Assembly (NCBI GenBank): GCA_034620365.1
Contig: JAQGEQ010000363.1
Location: 2,294,001 to 2,358,000 of the forward strand
DNA: 64,000 bases
Source of the DNA: Pegea sp. RAD2-039
Lineage: Eukaryota > Chordata > Thaliacea > Salpida > Salpidae
Direction: 5' to 3'
Shown here in pieces: positions 31,901 through 44,900 of the stretch (the first letter of the stretch is position 1; every line of letters begins with the position of its first letter). The notes beneath the pieces were generated by a model. That model saw only the letters and a list, made by a program, of their open reading frames with translations. It ran no database searches and had not been told where the DNA came from. The position numbers were made by a program, and so were the translations under genes.

Positions 31901-32261
31901 ATATTTATAAACTAATTATTTTTTAATTTTGCTTTTCTTGCAGTTAATCAGAGCTTTTTAAAAGTTTATATATTTTTTCAAGTTTAGTTGTATTATTGTT
32001 TATTCTATTTGAGCAAACTTATTGATTTTAAAACAAATTAGCAAATATAATTATTTTAAAAGTTGTTTTTTACATTTATAAATGGTTTTTTTAGAAAATT
32101 AAACTTTGGAAAAACGTTTTGATTAAATGATAAAACATGTAACTAAAAAATGTTTAAAATATAAATCTAAATGTAAAACATTGTTATTGAATTTTCAAAT
32201 TCTTTATCTAGTAATATTTAACATAAAAAAATCTTCACATAAATATCTTATTCAATTTACA
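28903..32261. other. AT-rich intergenic region
   Basis: About 3.4 kb of A/T-rich sequence between the divergent TMEM129 and MICAL genes. I see no coding exon, RNA gene or tandem array. The TGACGTCA palindrome that crowds neighbouring genes appears to be absent here. Confidence 0.5.
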
Positions 32262-32323
32262 GATGAGTTAAACTCATTTTTGTAATTTTCATTGAAATAA
32301 TCCTATTTAAGAACTGACTCAAA

Positions 32324-35300
32324 ATGAAATCAAAAGAAAATATCGAATCAAATGAGTCTATAAAATTATTTGAAAGGTAAATTTCAACAAATATATTTTC
32401 ATTTCATTTATATTCATCCACTTTTAGTTTTGTCAACGCTCAATCATGTCTAGAAACTTTATCAACTTTCAAGAAATTGTGTGAAAAATTAGATGTTAAA
32501 TACCCCCCAGCTCAGGGGAACCACCTCAAGTTCTATGACGTCATTAAGGATAAGTTGCCAAGCCATTGGCAATGCAAGGAGTTATGGACAAAGTTAGATA
32601 AGAGATTTTATTGTAAAGATTATTATAGATCATCTAAGAGTGACTACCGAAGATCAGGGAGGATTTGTTCGGATCAACAGGTTCGAAAGGGGTCTTAGAT
32701 GACTGTGAGATCAAATGTGAAATTTTTTTAGGCACTAGTCATAGGTGCTGGTCCAGTTGGTATTCGAGCTGCGATTGAGATGACGTTGCTAGGCAACCGC
32801 GTCATCGTCGTCGAGAAGCGAGAATCATTTTCACGCAATAATGTTCTCCATCTTTGGCCGTTTCTGTTAACTGATCTTAAAGTAAAAAGTTGTAAAGTGA
32901 TGACGTCATCAACTTACGAACCATACTTGCAGCAACTTGGCGCAAAAAAATTTTACGGCCGTTTTTGTTCTGGTGCGCTGAACCACGTTTCAATCCGCCA
33001 ACTTCAGCTGATTCTCATGAAGACGGCGCTGTTGATCGGGGTTCAATTTGAAATTGGCCGGGCTTTTGATGCTCTAATCCCGCCACCGTCTCCACCAACG
33101 CCTGATGCTCCGTCAGAAAAAGGTGAAATGACGTCATCAACTGAATCACATAATGACGTCATCGCGTATTATAGGATGGCGCGCTGCTTTCACCCCTAGC
33201 AACGATGAGTTACGCGATTTTGAATTCGATGTTATAGTCGGGGCAGACGCACGAAGAAATCGCTTCGAAGGTTTGATGACGTCATTAAACGTGTCATTGT
33301 TTTACCAGTGACGTCACAGGCTTTCCAAAACGTGAATTACGCGCGCGGTTAGCGATTGGGTTGACTTGTAACTTCGTGAACCTCAAAACGAAAGCTGATT
33401 CGAATGTAGAAGAGATTAGTGGAGTTGCTTATCATTTCAATCAGCGATTCTTCGAGAAGTTGGCAGAACGCGATGGAATCGAACTTGAAAATATTGTTTA
33501 TTACAAAGGGGACACTCACTACTTCGTGATGTGCGCCAAAAAACTCAGCTTACTTCGAAGAGGAGTTCTCAAAAAAGTGATTACATTTACCATAGTGATA
33601 ACGTCATCGTTGTCATGGTGATTTGCAGGATCATGAAGTGACTGCGGATTTGGTTGCTAGTAGCAACGTCGATGAGGAATGTTTGAAAGATTTTATTCGA
33701 ACTGCAGCAGATCGCGCGACGCAAGGAAAAATGCCGCAGTTTGAATTCGCGAAGAATAATCGAGGAAATGATGACGTAGCGCTTTTCGACTTCACGAGAA
33801 TGTAAGTAGGTTTAGTGATGATGACGTCATCATTGGTGTTGGTTGCTAGGTACCGAGCGGAACATGCTTCGAGATTTGAAGAACTTCATGGAAGAAAGCT
33901 GATGTTGGCGTTAGTAGGAGATAGTTTGATTGAAGTGAGTTGAAATCTGAAGATCTCTGCTTCTGAAGATCTCTGCTTCTGAAGATCTCTGCTTCTGAAA
34001 ATCTCTACTTCTGAAGATCTCTGCTTCTAAAGATCTCTGCTTCTGAAGATCTCTGCTTCTGAAGATCTCTGCTTCTGAAGATCTTCTTCTAAGACATCTT
34101 TATCACTTTCAGCCTTTTTGGCCGATGGGAACCGGATGCGCGCGCGGCTTTTTCGCTGTTTTTGATTTAGCCTGGGTGACCCGAAACTGGCAATTGAAGC
34201 GAGACGACCAAGACCCAACAAGTCAGTTGGTCCACAACCACTGTAACCATAGTAACTGGTATTTATCAACAGAGTCCTCAGAGTTTGAAGCTCTGTGGCT
34301 CCATGATCAACTTTATCGACTTCTTCAATTTTCAACGCCATCAACAACCAATCAAACTTACCAACATTACACAATCGGTAACCATAGCAACCACTAAAAC
34401 GCGCGCGCTTCTAACAGCTTCTTTCACAGATCCACAAACAAGATATTTGAATATGTTTTGTAAGCCAATAAGATTGGAGAAAATCTTCCATCTCTACACT
34501 TCAAATCGTCCAATAGAAAAGCTTCCTGAAACACCCCTACCAGTCGTCGCTGATCAGCGCCCCAGACGTTCAACTTTGACCCGAAAAGGTGCCCCACGCC
34601 TCATTTGACCCTCAAAACCGTTTTTACCATTTTGGCGTCTTTTGTTTCTGGCCCACTTTGACAACTTTATTTTGCAGCTTCCTCATTGGGCGATAATAAA
34701 TTGCTGAATTGGTGTAAAAGTTCGACAGCTTATTATTCTGATGACGTCATCATCGAGGACATGACGTCATCATGGCGAAATGGACTCGCTATTTGCGCTA
34801 TCATCGCAGCTTTTCGACCAAATCTCATTGATATGAAGTCACTACGAGCTGATGACGTAGCAACTAACAACCAGCTGGTTGGTGATGACGTTTCGACGAG
34901 CTGATGACGTCATCAACGCGCGATTGTTTCAGGCGTTTGATGTGGCTGAAAAGCATTTAGGAATTTCGCCAGTGAAGACGGGAAGAGAGATTAAAGAGGA
35001 AGATCTTGTTGATCCGCTCTTCATCTACTCTTATGTCTCTCAGGTGATCTTCAAGTGATCCTTGTGATCTTTATATGATCTTCATCATTCTTTGTAGTTC
35101 TACGAGCTCTTCAAAGCAGAAGCTCCTGTCTGGAAGCGAGCTGATGACGTCATCAAGACGAATGGCGACAGTGGAAGTAGTAAAGTGACGTCATCACTTT
35201 CCCACTTCCTCACCAAGCTGGTTGGCAAGCGGCGCTCTCAGGTTCGAAATCAGTGAAGGGGAACTTGCTGTTCAGTAAAGCGTGACGTTTTGTAGGAAGG

Positions 35301-38300
35301 GAATGAGAATGATGAAAGCGCGAAAAAGCGACGATCGTCGTCGATTACGTCATCAACTATCTTCAAAAAGCGAAAAAGTTACAATTTACAAACAACAAAA
35401 CAAGAAAAGTAAAAATCGATTTATTGTGACGATTTAATTGGACGTTTTTAATTGGACGTTTCTGATTGGACGTTTCTGAATTTTTAGAGAACCTGAAGTG
35501 AAAATCACTTCAATGAAGAACGGATCTTCTCAGGGATCAGGGATCAACATCCGAGCCTCTTCAAAGATCAATTTGATTGGTCAACACCTAATCGAGCAAT
35601 GGAGTGGAAAAGTTCCTGCTACGTCATCACCAGTGACGTCATCAACAGCGGTTAGTATTCTACATAACAACAAGCAGCCGCTGATTGATGTGATGACGTC
35701 AGAAACGCGAGAGTAGCGGGACATGTTGTTTTTGTGAGAATCGATTGTACATCACTGAAAGACAAAGCGCTGAAGGAAGGTTCTTTCATCGAAGATGTTT
35801 CGCGTGCTTCATTTGTCGGCAACCACTCAACCGTAACGATTACTGTTTCCAAGCTTCGTCAGGTTTGTTTGAATGACGTCATCTGTAAGTTGATGACGTT
35901 ATTTTGAGTTTTCAGGTAAATTTTTTTGTCGTCTTCACGCTCCAAATGATGACAATCAAGAAAAAGATGAAGAAAAAGATGAAGAGGAGGAAGAAGAGAA
36001 GATAGAGATTAAAGATGGAGGTGATATTTTGTCTTTTTTTGATTTTGGCATTTCTCACTTTTTTCTTCATCTCATTGATTGGTTAGAAGTGAAACTGGAA
36101 CCCGTCACAAGGTGGCGATATCGGTTTCAGTCTCTCAACATCCGAGAATTTGTTCTTGATTGGATTTTATTAATCTTTGTTGGAACTCTTCTCATCTTAG
36201 CACATCATTATATCTTCATTTCGATTTACTCGATGCCTTAAAAGCCCCTATTGCCCCCTTTTGAGCGCCAGCTAGCGGCCATTTTGTACATGCTTCATTT
36301 ATCAGCCATATTTTTCATTCTTGGGAAATCCCCGCATTTGTGTCTGATTTGTATCTTGCCTTTTGTATATTTTTGTCGTGTTAATCGGTGAAGGAATAAA
36401 AACTACAATCGAATTTGTGTGCTTGTTTTTCAGTTTGTTAGAAAAGTTTTTTTTCACTATTTTTTTTTTATGTGTAGATTTGGGACCTTGTGAGAGCGTG
36501 TTGGATGTTGCGATGCTCTGTAATATCCCCGAAGAGGAAGACCTCATCTCACTTCATCATTCTTCCGACTTCCTTTTGTCAGTATTTTATTTTTTTTAAT
36601 TTATTTTATTTTTATCTAAATATTTGTCAAATAAAACTTCAGATTTTTGAATATTTTTTTAAATATTTAATCATTTTATCATCAATATTTAAATATTTTA
36701 TTTATTCTATTCAAATTTTAAGTTTAAAAAAAGATATTTTTAAAAGTCTAAAAATCGATCACAAAAGATTTTGGAATTTTATTTCAAGAAATTTTTACAC
36801 AAAAATTCCAATTTTCATTTCCTGTTGATCACGTGATGATTCAGGTTGTTGATCGCGTGATGATTCAGGTTGTTGATCGCGTGATGATTCAGGTTGTTGA
36901 TCGCGTGATGATTCAGGTTGTTGATCACGTGATGATTCAGGTTGTTGATCACGTGATGATTCAGGTTGTTGGTCACGTGATGATTCAGGTTGTCTAAAAA
37001 CTCCAAAATTTTTGAAACCTGAAAAAAAGATAAAGATGCCCCATTTTAAATATCCTAATCTGTTTGTCCTGACATAGCTGTCCTGACATAGCTGTTTTGT
37101 TTTAACTGTCTTAACCTAAATATCCTGATCTAACTGTTCTGAACAGATATCCTGTCCTAACTGTCCAAATCTAACTGTCCTGGTATAGATGTCCTGACTT
37201 ATCTGTCCTTAAAGTGATTAATTTACTTTCAATTAAACATTTAAAATCTAACTGTCCTGACCTAACTGTTTTGACTTAACTGTCCCAATCTAACTGTCCC
37301 AATCTAACTGTCCTGGTATAACTGTCCTGGTATAACTGTCCTAAAAGGGATTTATTTACTTTTTCTTAAATATTCTTCAAAATAAATTTTACTAAAAAAT
37401 CAAAAACCTTTCAGCCAGCTAACTAACCAACTAAAAAGCTAACTGGTCACCTCTGTAACCAACAAACCAGTCGACTTTCAACCAACCAACCAACTCGACA
37501 AACTAAAAAAGATAAAAAAAAAGATAAAAAAAAAAAGATTAAAAAAAGAAACTTTTCTCGGCAAACAGAAAAAGTTGTAAAAAGTCAATAATTAATAAAT
37601 TGATGAAAAATAAATAAAAAAAATCATTTATTTGAATTAAGATCAAAGAAATATTGATCTAAAAAACTAAAATCAAACGCTTCAACTGATGACGTCATTT
37701 CTGAATGACGTCATTACACTTCTCATTTTGCCCAAATTTGTCAATAAAAGTCAACAAGTTGTCATGACGACGTCTCGTTAGCAACGAATTAAATTTTTGA
37801 ATTTTGTTTTTCAGCAACTCATCGTCAAGTACAACTGTGACGTCATCATCATCATCATCAGGTAAAATCGATTTTTCTCTTCATCGAAGCGGAACGAACA
37901 AATTTTTCGCTCAAAACATCATTCTTAAAAAACAATTTTTTTTTCACCGGAAGTTTTAAACAAATTTCTAAAAAATAAAATTTTTTTTTTAAAACTGAAA
38001 AAAAAAAATTAAAAAAGAAAAAAATCCGAAAAAATTTTCGCGAAAAAAAATTCTCTCATTTTGAGGGAAAACCAAATGACGTCATAATCTCAATAATTCA
38101 CCTAAATTGCTCTAGAAGTCGAAGAGAAGATAGAAAATGGACAAAATAATCCTTTTCCGCCCCAAATGCCCCTACTTTTCAATCCTCATCGGCGATTTAC
38201 ACTTCCGCGGTCGTATCGCGTTCCAAACCTCACAAAAATTCACGATCATTCGCCACCTTTCGCATCGAGTGACGATGATGACGTCATAAGGTCATCGACG

Positions 38301-41300
38301 TCATCAGCACTTCGAGGTGCTATCGATGAATGGCTTCTTGAATGTGTAAATGGAACAATGACGTCATTGGCTAGTGGTGAGCAGCGCCATTTAGCGGTCT
38401 GCTTGTTAGCTGGTTTGATGGCCGCTAGATGACAGCAAAGAGAAATTTATTTTTAGATTTTTTTCAAGTTTTTTGAAAATTTTTATTTTTTTTTATTTTT
38501 TGGAATATTTTCTGCTTTTTAGTTTTTGAAATTTTATTTTTATCTTTTTTTATATTATTTAAAAAATTCGGTTTTTCTTTCAAAATTTTTTGAATAATAT
38601 TTTTTCTTTTTTTTTTCAAAAAATTTTGATTTTTTTTCACAATTTTATTCAGAAAAAATTGAAGAAGTTTCGGAGGAGGGAATTTCCCAAAAAGATGACA
38701 AAAGTAAAATTTTCTGAAAATAAAAAAATCCCAAAAATTATTTTTCAACATTTTCAGCAAATTCCGATCAATCAGTCTTCGGCAGCTCTGACGTCACTGA
38801 TGATGACGTAATGATCGCTATTCTATAATCTCCCACTCTTTATCTTACATTGTACAGAACGAGCAACTTGGTCAAGAAACTTTTGGACTTGTTAATCGCT
38901 ACAGCGAGTTGATGACGCAACAAGAAGCAGGACAGTTGATGACGTCATCACCATCTACTGCGTCATCAGCAACTGAATCAAAACCTTCAAACGATTTCCC
39001 AATCGATTTATCAACGTCAGTGCAATTATGACGTCACTGATGATGACTTAATTACTTTGATGACGTCATTAGGTCGTATGATTTGAAGATCGATGTCCGA
39101 AGATTAATGGAGGAGAGAAAGGAGCGAAAGAGAAGAAAAGATGTCCCTCTAGTGGTGAAAAAAACTGTCCGGCGATCTCACAGTGATCTTCAAACGCGTC
39201 CTGTTGCGTATGGAGGTCTTTTTACCGCTCCAGACGCGTCACCTAGTGGCGAGAGGAAGATTAGGAGGAGTTCTTCCCTAGAAGAAGGACTTGAAAGGTT
39301 TAAAAAGATCTTAAAAAATTAGAAAAACTAAAAAATGTTTTTTTTTTCAGTTTTGAGTTAAAAATGAGATTTCGAATCAATGAGAAGTAAGTTGATGATG
39401 ATGACGTCATCAAAATTTTCATTACGTCATTACTTCCAGCGGAAGGATAGATGATGACGTCACGATCGCTGTACAAGGTCAAGAGCTTTCTCAAGTTTGT
39501 AGAAATGTCCCTGAAGAAGATCAGTATCCGGAAGTAGTTGAAGAAGATCCAAATCCGGAAGTTGTTGAAGAAGATCAGTATCCGGAAGTAGTTGAAGAAG
39601 ATCCACATCCGGAAGTAATTGAAGAAGATCAACATTCGGAAGTAGTTGAAGAAGATCAGTATCCGGAAGTAATTGAAGAAGATCAACATCCGGAAGATAA
39701 AATCACAAAAGATCCGGAAAACGCTGCTCCTCCTCCACGACGGTTGCCACCGATACCGTTACCAAGGAAACAGCGTTCACTTCCGTTGCTACCCAAGATA
39801 CCTCATCTAGAACTTTATTCACCAACTCACAAAGTCCTTACAGAGGAGGAACATCAGGTGATTGTGACGTCACTACTTGTGTAGTGGTGATGACGTCATC
39901 ATATCTTATTGTTACAGTCTCGCCGAAGATCAAACGCTTTTTCTATCGAATCGGAAACTTCCCCGACGATGACGTCATCACCTCAACCAGCTGACACGTC
40001 ATCATCATCAGTTTTTTATTCGGGAAAATCCCCGAAACCGAAACGAAAGTCTTTCAGACGAAGTTTGTTGCCAAAGAGGAAAACTGGTTAGTTGGTGACG
40101 TCATCGTTTCTGCTTATGACGTCATTATCGCATGCAGACGACACACAAAAGAAAAAGAAGCTTGTCCCGGATGTGAAGCAAGCTCGTGACGTCAGAGAGG
40201 ACTCGAAGAAGAGAAAGATCAAAAAAAGATTATCGGCTGTTGAGAAGAAAGTTCGATTTCGTCAAAAGAAAAGTTCGTTTCGCTTCAGTGAACAACGCAG
40301 AAATACCCTTTGCTGATTGGACGATATTTTTAGATCAGAGTAGCAAGAATAAAGTTTCAAAAGTGGAAGTTCCGGATTTCGTTGAAGAAAATCAAATCAA
40401 AAAAACTCTTCCAGAAAACCAGGATGGTCTGATCAATTATTTTTTTAAAAATAATTTTATAATAATTTATAATTTATTTATATGTTATTAACCCAAGTCA
40501 GTTAACAAATTATATTTACTTTATATTTTCTTTAATATCTATGCGAACACCGGCCCGGTTAGCTCAGTCGGTAGAGCGTTGGACTTTTAATCCAACGGTC
40601 GCGGGTTCAAGTCCCTCATCGGGCGGATTTTTTTTTACACGTATTTTTTTTTAAAGAGCTCGAACTCGCTATAATCCGCGGTGAACAGTTCTTGGATGTC
40701 CTCCCTAATGCTCTAAATTCTGAAGATGAAGGTTTAGGACTTTTAAGATGATTAAAAGTAATTTTTAATTTCTAATTTGATTTTAGCTTCTGAACCTTTT
40801 GAAGAAGAAATCAAAACTTCGAAACGTCGAAAACGTGAAAAACGCAAAGAGCAAATAAAACAAGAAAAACGTTTTCAACACGCGCAAGTACGTCATCAAC
40901 ACGCGTGATGACGTCATCACTAATATCAACTTGTTTGTAGTATATTCAAAATCAACTGGAAATTTTAGAAATGAAATTAGCAGAATTAGAAGAACATGGT
41001 GTCTACATTGAACAAGTTATTCGTGGTGATCATAGCAAAGGTGATTTCATCTCAACTGTCCATGACGTCATCTAGTTGGCATGTGACGTCGTGTAGTTGG
41101 CATGTGACGTCATGTAGTTGGCATGTGACGTCATCTAATTTACATATTAATAGATTTAGCGGATGGCGTTGAATCAAAGTACATGCAAGAATGGTTGGAA
41201 GTAATTCGTGAAAAAAATACTCTTCATCTGATGGAACAAGAACTCTACATCCAGTATGTCTTCCTCATTACTTAATTGATCTTTTCATCATCTTCATCTT

Positions 41301-41930
41301 CCAGATCTTTGATCTGATCTTTTACATCTTTGATCTGATCTTCATCTTTGATCTGATCTTCATCTTTTATCTGATCTTCATCTTTTATCTGATCTTCATC
41401 TTTTATCTGATCTTCATCTTTTATCTGATCTTCATCTTTTATTTGATCTTCATCTTTTATCTGATCTTCATCTTTTTGTAGCCAGCGCGAATTACAGCTA
41501 AAAGATCAGCAAGATCAAATCTACAAGGAGCTACAACGCAACTTGGAAATTCCTGGTTTGTCGCGCATGTGACGTAATCAGTTGGTGACGTCATCATCTT
41601 TACAGACGCTGAGAAGACTGCAGAAGAATTAAAAGAGGAGAAAACGTTACTAAGTAACATGATGGAGCTTGTAGAGCAAAGAGATCGTCTCGTTAGATTA
41701 CTTGAAGAACAGAGGTCAGTTTCGGGAAAATCCCTCAATTGAAAATTTTTTAACAAAATTTTTTTAGGATTACCTCAGATCCTGTTGATCCGATCTGGTT
41801 GATGATGGATCGATTTGATAATTCGTTTTCGATCAGTGAAGGAAAACACGCGTTGATGACGTCATCACCTTCATCATTATCGCTAATGACGTCATCATGT
41901 GAAGCTACAACTTCGTCATCAAGAAATTAA
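32324..41930 (+). CDS. MICAL: MICAL-family flavoprotein monooxygenase
   Basis: MICAL proteins oxidise actin methionines to disassemble filaments downstream of semaphorin-plexin and Rab signals. About 35 exons. The FAD monooxygenase domain (32428 to about 34500) has YNVIK-type [69 protein letters not shown], and [10 protein letters not shown] joined to [13 protein letters not shown]. The CH domain begins at 34678 ([28 protein letters not shown]). A LIM domain spans 35703-36020 ([31 protein letters not shown]). After a long Ser/acidic/basic linker, the C-terminal bMERB Rab-binding coiled coil occupies 40787-41930 ([35 protein letters not shown]). The long form has AATAAA at 42275-42280. Exons are dense in TGACGTCA, read as MTSS or DDVI. 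A terminal exon at 36087 offers a shorter form. A two-codon uORF (ATGAGTTAA, 32263-32271) opens the leader. Confidence 0.93.
33945..34085 (+). repeat. intronic GATCTCTGCTTCTGAA tandem repeat
   Basis: About eight copies of a 16-bp unit, GATCTCTGCTTCTGAA, with minor changes, directly upstream of the MICAL exon that starts PFWPMGTG. It belongs to the pyrimidine-biased intron repeat class of this window. Confidence 0.9.
36087..36241 (+). CDS. MICAL: alternative terminal exon of MICAL encoding a C-terminal membrane anchor
   Basis: An acceptor (GGTTAG ending 36086) joins in phase 1 to the LIM-encoding exon ending at 36020. The frame then runs 51 codons to TAA at 36241. It starts [14 protein letters not shown] (basic) and contains a long hydrophobic stretch, [20 protein letters not shown], ending [10 protein letters not shown] at the stop. 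The alternative exon at 36478 is entered in the same phase, so either choice is legal. AATAAA at 36395-36400 with a GT-rich tract (36413-36432) supplies a poly(A) site. The resulting form would be FMO-CH-LIM with a tail anchor and no Rab-binding domain. I know of no such MICAL isoform. Confidence 0.62.
36395..36400 (+). terminator. alternative poly(A) signal in MICAL
   Basis: AATAAA followed 13-32 nt later by TTTGTGTGCTTGTTTTT, a typical GT/T-rich downstream element. It lies 154 nt after the stop of the membrane-anchor exon and upstream of the next internal exon, which supports a real alternative last exon. Confidence 0.6.
36823..36992. repeat. 24-bp minisatellite carrying E-box palindromes
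   Basis: Seven copies of a 24-bp unit (GATCACGTGATGATTCAGGT and the next four bases) in a MICAL intron. Copies 1, 5, 6 and 7 contain TCACGTGA; copies 2-4 contain TCGCGTGA. The unit is a multiple of three, which creates an incidental reverse-strand frame rich in NHH. Confidence 0.95.
37064..37350. repeat. degenerate CTGTCCTGACATAA-type tandem repeat
   Basis: Irregular repeats of CTGTCCTGA, TAACTGTCC and CTGGTATAACTGTCC, with spacing of about 12-16 bp, in the same MICAL intron as the E-box minisatellite. Copies are interrupted near 37210-37245. Confidence 0.75.
39513..39700 (+). repeat. 27-bp coding repeat in the MICAL linker
   Basis: Seven in-frame copies of a 9-residue unit of the form EEDQYPEVV (variants [27 protein letters not shown]). 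Being 27 bp it keeps the frame. It gives an acidic, Pro-containing stretch between the LIM and Rab-binding domains and is followed by a proline-rich [15 protein letters not shown] segment that could bind SH3 domains. Confidence 0.88.
40553..40625 (+). tRNA. tRNA-Lys(TTT)
   Basis: A complete 73-nt cloverleaf. The acceptor stem GCCCGGT pairs with ATCGGGC (one G-U). The A box is TAGCTCAGTCGG. Anticodon loop CTTTTAA has TTT at 40586-40588 between TTGGA and TCCAA. The T arm is GCGGG-TTCAAGT-CCCTC with B box GGTTCAAGTCC, and the discriminator is G. A T-rich pol III terminator (TTTTTTTT) follows at 40628. There is no intron. It lies in sense orientation inside a MICAL intron of about 240 bp. Confidence 0.97.
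41285..41475 (+). repeat. intronic TGATCTTCATCTTTTATC tandem repeat
   Basis: Nine or ten copies of an 18-bp unit (CTGATCTTCATCTTTTAT and close variants) fill one of the last MICAL introns and end just before its acceptor TTTTTGTAG. It is C/T-biased on the coding strand, like the repeats in eRF1 and FLYWCH introns. Confidence 0.9.
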
Positions 41931-44900
41931 AGAGATTATGCGTCATTATGATATCATGATCACGTGTTTTTGTGACGTCATTAGCAGTTATTTTCTTCTA
42001 ATCAGAGCTGGGACTTTTTGTGCAATGACGTCATCAATGTTGTCATTTTTACTTGCGATAAATATTCACTTAAGTGACGTCATCACCGCCAGATGACGTC
42101 ATCAGCATGTAAATGAGGAAAAGATTGCTTTGAAATAGTTTGAATCAAATTTTTCGTGACGTCATCTTCCATATGACGTCATCTTCCGTTTGTTGTTATA
42201 TCTCTGTGACGATTATCTTTTTAATCTATTATTTGTTTACTTTATTTTCTTTTTGTTTTACTTTTGTTTTGTCAAATAAATTAAAGGAACTTGAAATTTT
42301 GATAAAATACGAAATAAGACTTTCATGTGAGATTAAGAGATTAGAAAATCAAATCTCCAAAGTGATAAGCTGAAAAAAAAATGTTTCTCGCAAATTTTTG
42401 TGATTACAAAAATAAAATTGTTCAAATTACAACCGGTAGGTGGCGAAAGAGATTTATTCTCTATCATCTAACTTTTAAAAGTTGTTTAAAAACTTGACTT
42501 TCTTCAAATAACTTTAGATCTTCAACTAATCAACTGATTAGCAAATTTATTCAATCCTAAGGTCAAGATTCGATCAAAGTTAATTTGTAGCTTTTTACTA
42601 TTCGATTAAAATGGTCATTCTGTAAATAGCCGGAAGTCTTACAGGAGGAGTTATTAGATTGATAATTAAATTTCTGACAGTAATAATTAGTTGACAAATT
42701 GAAAAAAAATTTGAAAAATTTTGATTTTGTATCATTTAAAGTGTTTCAAAAATATTATTTGAAAATTGGAAAATTTACAAAAAAAATTCGAAATATTTTT
42801 TTGCATTTTTTTAATTTTTAAAAATTGTTAAATTAAAAAGTTTTAGATGCTAAAGATAAATATTTTTTACATAATCGTCACTAGATGTGATTACTTAAAT
42901 TCTTATTTCGAGTAATTTCAATGTCAAAACTTATTTTAAAGCTTTTAATTTGACATTGAAAGGTTTTAAAATAAAAATTTTAAAATATAATCAAAATTTA
43001 ATGATTTTAAAAACTAGAAAAAAAAATACTAGAATATGAATGACCAAAAACTACCATTTGTAAATTAGAATTTTGATTTAGAAACCCTTTTTACCAAAGC
43101 TGACAGCCAATTAATTTTTTTTTATCAAACTCTCTCCTTAACAACGATCGGTTGTCATGGAAACAAGCTTTCAAAGGAATTGTGCAAATTATCATTATTG
43201 TTACTATCTGATTTTTATCTGAAAATTTTTTCGAACTTTGATAAAAAATATTCGAACAAAAGATTTTTTTAAAGTTTCAATTTTATTTTTTATTTATTTT
43301 TCCGAAACATTTTTTTTTTGCAATTTTTCCCCTAATTTCAACAAAGAACAATTTTTTGTAAAAAATGTTTTTTGCACCCTATTAAATATTTATGAAAAAT
43401 CGAGATGGAAACGGAAGATGAAATCTTCTTGACTAATTAACACAAGACACCCACCACATGGTGGCGGTATACTAATCGCTAAATTACGTCACGATCGGTT
43501 TTTAGTAGTCGCATGTTGTAACGAAAAGTTGCCGATGATTTGGTTGTCATGACAACACTAAAGCTATTTTGACTCGATCAATAATTTAAATGAGATATAT
43601 CTAAAAGAGTTTTCGAGTCGAAAACGTTTCTTTAGCATCTAATAATCTAAATGAAAATTTATCTATATTTGAAATTATCGATTTGCTGATCACGTGACCA
43701 ATACCTGAGCTTGAAGCCAAAATCGATATGAGCCATTTTGGGATGTTTACTACGAAATAGTTTTGATGAAAAACAAATTTGATTAAAAAAAGTTTTTTGC
43801 TTTATCATTTTTTTGTTGTTGCAACTTTAAGTTGATCATTTTTTTCTATTTCAAAATCAATTTAGAAATTTTCCATCAATTTGTTGTACGAAGCAATGAC
43901 GTCACGCAATCGTGAACCTTGATTGGATGTTTATTTTGGCAACTCAGTGAGTTAAAACAATTTAAAGGCCGCTGGCTGATGTTGCCATGACAGTTCGTTC
44001 ATGTTTCAAATCAAAAAATTATTAATTTTAAAACAATTACACGATTTCAGAATCAAAATTTAAAAATGTTAATTTTCAAATCGACAACCAGCCACAAAAA
44101 TTTTGTTATTTTTTATTTGGGAAACTTCAAATATTAATCTGAAAAATTTCAGTTTTAGTTCATTCTTTCTACATCAATTTCTCGAATTTTATCTTTTTTT
44201 TTCTCGGAAACCTATTTTGCCGAAGGCCTTAGAGGAATCTATTTAGAAATTATGTTTAAATTAATATCAAATTCTTTAGTTTTATCTATAAGTTCATCTA
44301 GAAAATTGAGCGTTTCAAATTCGTTCGTAAAATCAGTGTTTCAAAGTATTTTATTTTAAAATTATTTACGATATTTATTTTTTTTTTCTAAAATGAAGAA
44401 TTTTTCCTTTTTTTTTTAACAAACTTTAATTCAAATAAATAAATTCAATTTTTTCAATTTTAATAATTTTTTCCTACATTTGTTCAAAGTGTTGCTTTAA
44501 AACATTTTTAAATCTTTATAAAATAAATATCATGAAAATTATTTGTAAAGATATTAGAACAGAAATTTAAATCTTTTAAAATCGGATATTTCTTATTCAT
44601 GACAAATCACAATAGGATTTGAAAAATTCTATAAAACAGTTTTTATTCGATAAATTTTGTTTGGCGAGGAGTTTTTGCAGGTGTAGGTGCAGGTGTAGGT
44701 TGTTCTTTTTAATAATTGTATTTAATTCAGTGATTTGTATAACATTAAAAAGAATTCTATTATCAATTTGGAAAAAAGTTAATTCCCAAGATACATTCAA
44801 ATTCATTTCTTCGAAATTAGTTGATAAAATACTTTGATAAACTCGATTTAGAATAAAAGAAGAAGATCTCGATATTTTGAAGATGTTCAACATTATTTTA

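Follow-up and report, generated by a model that had tools for sequence, protein, structure and literature searches.

MICAL proteins dismantle actin by oxidation, and the central question about them is how this activity is confined in space. The known answers are based on autoinhibition that is relieved by Rabs or plexins. A MICAL gene in the tunicate Pegea sp. raises the question of whether the same enzyme can also be given a hydrophobic ending that would fix it on a membrane. A preliminary description of this DNA proposed that the gene has two alternative endings behind its LIM domain, one leading to the Rab-binding domain and the other to a short terminal exon with a hydrophobic segment. The window, that is, the whole 64,000-nucleotide stretch of DNA that was analysed, belongs to a genome assembly of 105.7 Mb in 387 contigs. 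No description of a membrane-anchored MICAL ending was found in the open-licence literature searched.

Organization of the MICAL gene

The MICAL gene is located on the plus strand and starts at position 32324. In the exon model, its monooxygenase (FMO), CH, and LIM part is formed by 18 exons separated by 17 introns, 14 of which are only 48–55 nt long. The features of the core and of the long form are as follows.

32324–36020, plus strand: MICAL core (FMO, CH, LIM), 18 exons; from the exon model and protein P0001 of a close relative (94% identity)
32324-32376, 32428-32680, 32732-32881, 32933-33122, 33175-33270, 33320-33576, 33629-33801, 33850-33934, 34113-34221, plus strand: exons 1–9 of the core
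34273-34377, 34430-34588, 34678-34877, 34933-35043, 35098-35241, 35296-35408, 35488-35650, 35703-35862, 35916-36020, plus strand: exons 10–18 of the core
35703–36020, plus strand: two LIM exons and an acidic linker, with intron 35863-35915 between the exons; protein P0121 of a close relative spans both exons without this 53-nt intron
36478–36581, plus strand: first long-form exon past the alternative ending; phase preserved, end placed by eye
40787–41930, plus strand: last six long-form exons, encoding the bMERB Rab-binding domain; from tblastn with the Clavelina protein and a match to Pfam PF12130 (E 3.3e-29)

The domains that characterize a MICAL are present. The MICAL-type monooxygenase domain is recognized by the Pfam profile Rossman_Mical with an E value of 5.2e-52 (175.7 bits against a cut-off of 27), and the CH domain by PF00307 with an E value of 2.5e-19. 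The LIM domain of the window scores 22.8 bits (E 0.00011), which is marginally below the curated cut-off of 22.9; nevertheless, it aligns to the LIM domain of the Clavelina MICAL, and the LIM portion within P0121 reaches 29.9 bits, above the Pfam cut-off. The bMERB domain of the long form was identified in the joined exons from 40787-41930, in a model that leaves out the exons between 36581 and 40787. In the tblastn search, the Clavelina protein has a further short match at 39774-39827. The strand and order of the bMERB exons and their alignment to the Clavelina protein suggest that they share one mRNA with the core. Among the best 120 of 3371 matches, the best named match of the FMO-CH-LIM part is the Clavelina MICAL (E 3.4e-228, 44% identity over 92% of the query), and the other named matches are vertebrate proteins, mostly MICAL2 and MICAL3, except for two from Ciona savignyi, P0006 and P0059.

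Introns 3 and 9 of the gene are in frame and without stops; the second of these, 34222-34272, is absent from P0001. Intron 35651-35702, with a length of 52 nt, ends in an acceptor that scores lower (−1.6 bits) than any other in the gene, and retention of this intron ahead of the LIM domain may be regulated. A tRNA-Lys (TTT) gene at 40553-40625, on the same strand and 5' of the six bMERB exons, is probably intronic. At 39490-39700, a coding stretch of the long form is repetitive, with imperfect copies of units such as VVEEDQYPE; a second repeat, about 18 bp in size and noticed by eye, lies between two bMERB exons at 41330-41470.

Splice and candidate polyadenylation signals behind the LIM exon

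The preliminary description placed the end of the last LIM exon at position 36020 in phase 1, in agreement with the exon model. The GT at 36021, which is the donor of the long form, scores 7.26 bits in a matrix derived from the 17 introns of the MICAL gene, a value reached by only 2.7% of the 3050 GT sites of the plus strand. The acceptor proposed for the long form, with its last base at 36477, is also supported: it scores 2.42 bits, keeps the phase, and continues with the residues DLGPCESV... towards the exons in which the bMERB domain was found. The features of the alternative ending are as follows.

36021–36086, plus strand: 66 nt without an in-frame stop, either an intron or the start of a terminal extension (22 residues); coding in P0121, with 20/22 residues identical
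36087–36241, plus strand: C-terminal hydrophobic tail with a TAA stop at 36239-36241; from the open frame, hydropathy, and P0121 (48/51 residues identical)
36149–36238, plus strand: predicted transmembrane helix and C-terminus; from hydropathy and an AlphaFold2 model of P0121
36242–36433, plus strand: putative 3' UTR of the short form, with AATAAA at 36395-36400 and a GT-rich run at about 36414-36430

Joining G36020 to position 36087 gives the 51-residue frame that had been proposed, which ends with ...YSMP in front of the stop. The acceptor postulated for this junction, at 36086, fares less well. It scores −1.87 bits, which is equalled or exceeded by 56% of the 3288 AG sites of the plus strand, and P0121 codes straight through it. 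Reading on from the LIM exon without splicing is possible in the window as well, since nucleotides 36021-36086 are stop-free in frame and lead into the same tail. The tail could alternatively be encoded by a separate terminal exon, 36087-36241, spliced to 36020 with the removal of the 66 nt, which would produce the same anchor shortened by 22 residues. We consider this arrangement unlikely, even though the donor at 36021 is strong and the acceptor at 36086 is barely weaker than the weakest of the true acceptors of the gene, which range from −1.6 to 13.0 bits in a leave-one-out calculation. The 66 nt also resemble an intron in composition, being T-rich with a GC content of 0.288, and their codon score of −0.246 bits per codon is matched by 65% of noncoding samples; moreover, introns 3 and 9 demonstrate that in-frame stop-free introns exist in this gene. 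However, P0121 retains 20 of the 22 residues encoded by the 66 nt with the frame intact. Although the source of P0121 may be partly spliced RNA, its reading through the 66 nt together with the weakness of the acceptor makes the read-through likelier than splicing at 36086.

The AATAAA at 36395 and the GT-rich run behind it are both present, as the preliminary description had claimed. The hexamer occurs about 2.2 times per kb in the window, and therefore it is weak evidence when taken alone. In the neighbourhood of the alternative ending, an AG ending at 36433 scores highest as an acceptor, with 11.0 bits, which places it in the top 0.4% of AG sites. Splicing of the donor 36021 to this site would generate a soluble short form that terminates with Gly-Val-Cys-stop two codons past the junction, and such a form might coexist with the others. 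We regard its existence as highly improbable: the AG sits at the end of the GT- and T-rich run behind the AATAAA (36412-36433), where a downstream element of a poly(A) site is expected, no protein in the comparison supports the form, and P0121 does not use the junction.

Hydrophobicity of the tail

The hydrophobic segment attributed to the 51-codon frame is clearly distinguished from the rest of the protein. Its best 19 residues have a Kyte-Doolittle value of 2.33, in comparison with 1.53 for the best segment elsewhere in the protein, and an octanol sum of −14.3, in comparison with +2.1; the octanol minimum of the tail itself is −15.3. The tail therefore contains one strongly hydrophobic segment at the C-terminus of the protein, as evidenced by its hydropathy and by the predicted helix described below. 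A search of the 105.7-Mb genome with the tail returns its own locus as the only match at E <= 0.001.

The probability that such a frame arises by chance was estimated from about 38.5 kb of the window, which was taken to be largely noncoding. Of 5416 plus-strand frames sampled there, 222 have no stop within 51 codons, and of 5376, 76 (1.4%) have none within 73 codons, the length of the tail together with the 66 nt. Among the 134 open frames of at least 51 codons on both strands, one reaches the Kyte-Doolittle value of 2.33 and five have an octanol sum of −14.3 or lower. An open frame that is also this hydrophobic seldom arises by chance. For its synonymous codons, the tail scores better than 96.7% of noncoding samples; however, three other frames of this stretch, one forward and two reverse, surpass it, and the score thus reflects composition more than reading frame.

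A structure was predicted by AlphaFold2 from a two-sequence alignment with P0121 as the target. The model is poor overall, with a mean pLDDT of 53.4 and a pTM of 0.25, and contains an unbroken helix formed by residues 118–147; the pLDDT values of the blocks over residues 121-150 are 79, 85, and 73. A second, less certain helix, residues 78–110, takes in the 66-nt stretch. If the 66 nt are coding, a moderately hydrophobic helix would thus precede the anchor. The 17 residues in front of the C-terminal helix include four arginines and two glutamates. According to the positive-inside rule, the basic flank of a membrane helix stays in the cytosol, and therefore the enzyme would be left on the cytosolic side.

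Conservation of the tail in a close relative

A protein search with the LIM domain and tail, which covered 10 candidates, identified a single match, P0121. It is a 150-residue JGI protein present in four contigs. P0121 starts within the LIM domain and has a spliced appearance, because its LIM exons are joined without the 53-nt intron 35863-35915, the length of which is not a multiple of three. It then continues through the 66 nt without a frame shift into the tail and ends with the same residue as the window frame. P0121 represents the best evidence, from sequence comparison, that the hydrophobic ending may be real. The two sequences differ at 1/47 positions of the LIM domain, 7/27 positions of the acidic linker, which also contains an insertion of three residues, 2/22 positions of the 66-nt stretch, 2/21 positions before the helix, and 1/30 positions of the helix and C-terminus. 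The 73 codons past the LIM exon have accumulated five changes and no insertions or deletions. The tail has changed less than the acidic linker (3/51 against 7/27, Fisher p 0.027). P0001, the 94% identical JGI protein, differs from the window at 8/490 positions of the N-terminal and monooxygenase part, 7/55 of the hinge, 7/110 of the CH domain, and 5/132 aligned positions of the CH-LIM linker. The rate of change of the tail is similar to that of the CH domain and above that of the monooxygenase. The hydrophobic frame is present in the relative with 48 of 51 residues identical, but the relatives are so close that this conservation is no proof of selection.

P0001 lacks the first 15 introns of the gene, including two that are in frame and stop-free, and therefore we read it as derived from a transcript and not from a gene prediction. 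Both P0001 and P0121 appear to be open reading frames identified on contigs of transcripts. The P0001 frame extends into intron 35651-35702, which appears to be retained there, and the start of P0121 corresponds to the first usable TTG start codon past the window stop in this same intron. Since both proteins fit the retention of intron 35651-35702, their contigs may originate from RNA that was incompletely spliced, in which case the P0121 tail could likewise be a retained intron.

In the extreme case, a functional short form would be absent, the tail would be intron sequence that is open by chance in two close relatives, and the gene would produce the long bMERB form only. The low divergence and the weak codon evidence are compatible with this explanation. 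Furthermore, the longest contigs of P0001 and P0121, 5338 and 4602 nt, exceed the mRNA length estimated for the short form, about 3 kb plus the 5' UTR, and no full-length protein with LIM and tail was found at E <= 10 among 467 candidates with lengths of 0.55–1.75 times that of the full protein. We nevertheless consider it unlikely that the tail is a retained intron. Chance would have to provide a 73-codon open frame, which occurs in 1.4% of noncoding attempts, with a hydrophobicity found in one to five of 134 chance frames, and to preserve it between relatives with five changes and no indels. In addition, the AATAAA is sensibly placed, and vertebrates have alternative endings at the same position of the gene. 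Searches of viral contigs with P0121 and P0001 did not find the DNA of the relative.

Comparison with vertebrate MICAL2 and MICAL3 endings

Among the matches listed, many vertebrate MICAL2 isoforms and the MICAL3 isoform P0031 end after the LIM domain in a tail with a hydrophobic segment, and other vertebrate isoforms, such as P0020 and P0051, end differently. An ending after the LIM domain that replaces the bMERB part is thus common to the window and to some vertebrate MICAL2 and MICAL3 isoforms, and the shared position is clear. Thirty-two vertebrate tails were collected from 121 proteins using a pattern set by eye, and 14 remained after the removal of near-duplicates. Nine of these 14 distinct tails open with Gly-x-x-x-Ser-Phe-Phe, and the extension in the window opens with Gly-Asp-Ile-Leu-Ser-Phe-Phe; the motif was noticed after the collection, for which the pattern already required Ser-(Phe/Leu)-(Phe/Leu/Cys).

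It is possible, although doubtful, that the tail descends from a short ending of ancestral chordate MICALs that vertebrates have also kept in MICAL2 and MICAL3; the ending might serve to bind proteins or to contact membranes reversibly, and not as a fixed anchor. Such an origin is compatible with the other explanations. It is consistent with the location of the endings at the same place after the LIM domain and linker, and with the lead-in motif that is found in the window, MICAL2 (P0017), and MICAL3 (P0031). A junction-anchored global alignment of the tail to 13 MICAL2 tails is matched by 22/1000 full and 29/1000 class shuffles, which is a marginal result; because several tests were run, values of 2–3% are not to be taken as significant. 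In the same comparison with MICAL3, 120/1000 and 259/1000 shuffles are as good, whereas the control comparison of MICAL3 with MICAL2 gives 0/1000 in both. Profile methods did not detect homology: hhalign is null, and in hmmsearch with shuffled controls the tail is equalled by 2233/4709 full and 2077/4734 class shuffles. When the tail is scored against each of the 14 tails, between 9 and 295 of 300 shuffles do equally well in local pairwise alignment, as do between 22 and 473 of 2000 in ungapped alignment anchored at the junction. The vertebrate segments are also less hydrophobic, with octanol sums from −3.9 to −7.5 in six tails in comparison with −14.3 in the window. The hydrophobicity of vertebrate tails is barely above that of an enzyme-internal helix (of eight MICALs scored, seven have octanol sums of −3.7 to −5.3 for this helix and one has +5.5). 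Shared ancestry of the tunicate and vertebrate endings is at most weakly indicated by the sequences.

Proposed model of a short membrane-anchored form

Judging from the sequences of the window and of its relative, this locus probably does encode a MICAL with a hydrophobic alternative ending. We lean towards an explanation in which the short form is made by reading on from the LIM exon, which becomes a composite terminal exon, 35916-36241, with a segment resembling a tail anchor. The sequence of the window and P0121 support the proposal, made in the preliminary description, of a short form in which the FMO, CH, and LIM domains are followed by a transmembrane-like tail and the bMERB domain is missing, whereas its production by splicing to a separate exon is considered less likely than read-through.

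In the read-through model, one MICAL gene would give rise to two 3' ends. Splicing from the donor at 36021 would join the LIM exon to 36478, and the product would carry the autoinhibitory, Rab-binding bMERB end. If the donor is skipped and the RNA is cleaved and polyadenylated behind the AATAAA at 36395, the LIM exon would be extended by 73 codons. Translation of this mRNA would yield a protein of about 948 residues, in which the monooxygenase, CH, and LIM domains are followed by a stretch of amphipathic or hydrophobic character and, at the C-terminus, by a transmembrane helix. The short form is predicted to insert into the membrane as a tail anchor, with the enzyme facing the cytosol. Because it lacks the bMERB domain, it would be neither autoinhibited nor recruited by Rabs, and it would oxidise actin solely beside its own membrane, outside of Rab control.

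If the model is correct, a permanently membrane-bound and uninhibited form provides a different answer to the problem of spatial confinement, obtained from the same gene by the choice of RNA ending. It would then be worth reconsidering those vertebrate MICAL2 and MICAL3 isoforms that have hydrophobic endings. The novelty probably consists of a variant ending in a known enzyme family. A broader and rather improbable proposal is that chordate MICALs have inherited from a common ancestor a switch between two endings behind the LIM domain, in which intronic polyadenylation selects between a Rab-gated soluble form and a membrane-fixed uninhibited form. In the tunicate, the latter would have a true tail anchor, possibly in the inner nuclear membrane or endoplasmic reticulum, as a counterpart of nuclear MICAL2 signalling. 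A basic stretch between the CH and LIM domains resembles, by eye, a nuclear localisation signal; in combination with the anchor, it could put an actin oxidase at the inner nuclear membrane or endoplasmic reticulum.

Other loci and repeats

The genome contains a paralogous locus on the minus strand (L008, G000:C29:937092-937515) that encodes a MICAL-type monooxygenase, 45–65% identical in the aligned stretches. No CH or LIM match was detected in the 9.9 kb examined there, and one stretch matching the family holds a TAG; the locus may be a paralogue that consists of the monooxygenase alone, or a copy in decay. It was considered as an internal comparison for the tail and dropped, as its match is confined to the monooxygenase part, and the missing CH and LIM matches make it uninformative on the tail. 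A second bMERB match in the genome (L006, G000:C14:526630-526752) perhaps belongs to a MICAL-like or EHBP gene.

The palindrome TGATGACGTCATCA has 1972 exact sites in the 105.7-Mb genome, in comparison with 0 for the reversed-pattern control. Its core, TGACGTCA, is present in 68 copies in the window, where 0.5 would be expected from base composition. Forty-seven of the 68 copies are located at 32000-43999; nine copies lie in seven of the 17 MICAL introns and six in exons. The sequence may be a CRE-like site or a mobile short element.

Relationship to known MICALs and tail-anchored proteins

The long form encoded in the window has the same domain order as the bMERB-bearing MICAL1 and Drosophila Mical. 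We know of no hydrophobic ending in these proteins, and, unlike the predicted short form, they are recruited by Rabs or plexins. Two articles describe the C-terminal autoinhibition of this group and its relief by Rabs; in MICAL1, it is the C-terminal CC/bMERB part that keeps the enzyme inactive until Rabs release it (PMC11557892, PMC9982024). The view in the preliminary description that known MICALs are soluble and recruited by Rabs agrees with this control of MICAL1. It is too general for MICAL2, which is described in the same articles as lacking the CC/ERM-like domain and being constitutively active and not autoinhibited (PMC11557892, PMC9982024), and for those MICAL2 and MICAL3 isoforms that have a mildly hydrophobic ending behind the LIM domain.

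Vertebrate MICAL2 isoforms, many of which are about 960 residues long, consist of FMO, CH, and LIM domains without bMERB, like the tunicate short form. Those with a hydrophobic ending have about 95 residues past the LIM domain that hold the hydrophobic segment. Unlike the tunicate tail, this segment is less hydrophobic, contains glutamate, and is followed by 20–30 further, mostly polar, residues. In a review, the region of MICAL2 behind the LIM domain is treated as a possible coiled coil (PMC3645671), and the splice form MICAL2-PV reportedly interacts with Miro2 through its monooxygenase domain (PMC8683290). The short MICAL3 isoform of zebra finch, P0031, has a shorter ending at the same place, with the lead-in GSSASFF and a hydrophobic segment, the similarity of which to the window tail is within chance.

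In tail-anchored proteins, one hydrophobic helix lies no more than about 30 residues from the C-terminus, with a basic flank on its N-terminal side, and a hydrophobic N-terminal signal is absent. The tunicate short form, as predicted, resembles this class in its C-terminal helix, its basic flank, and the absence of an N-terminal signal.
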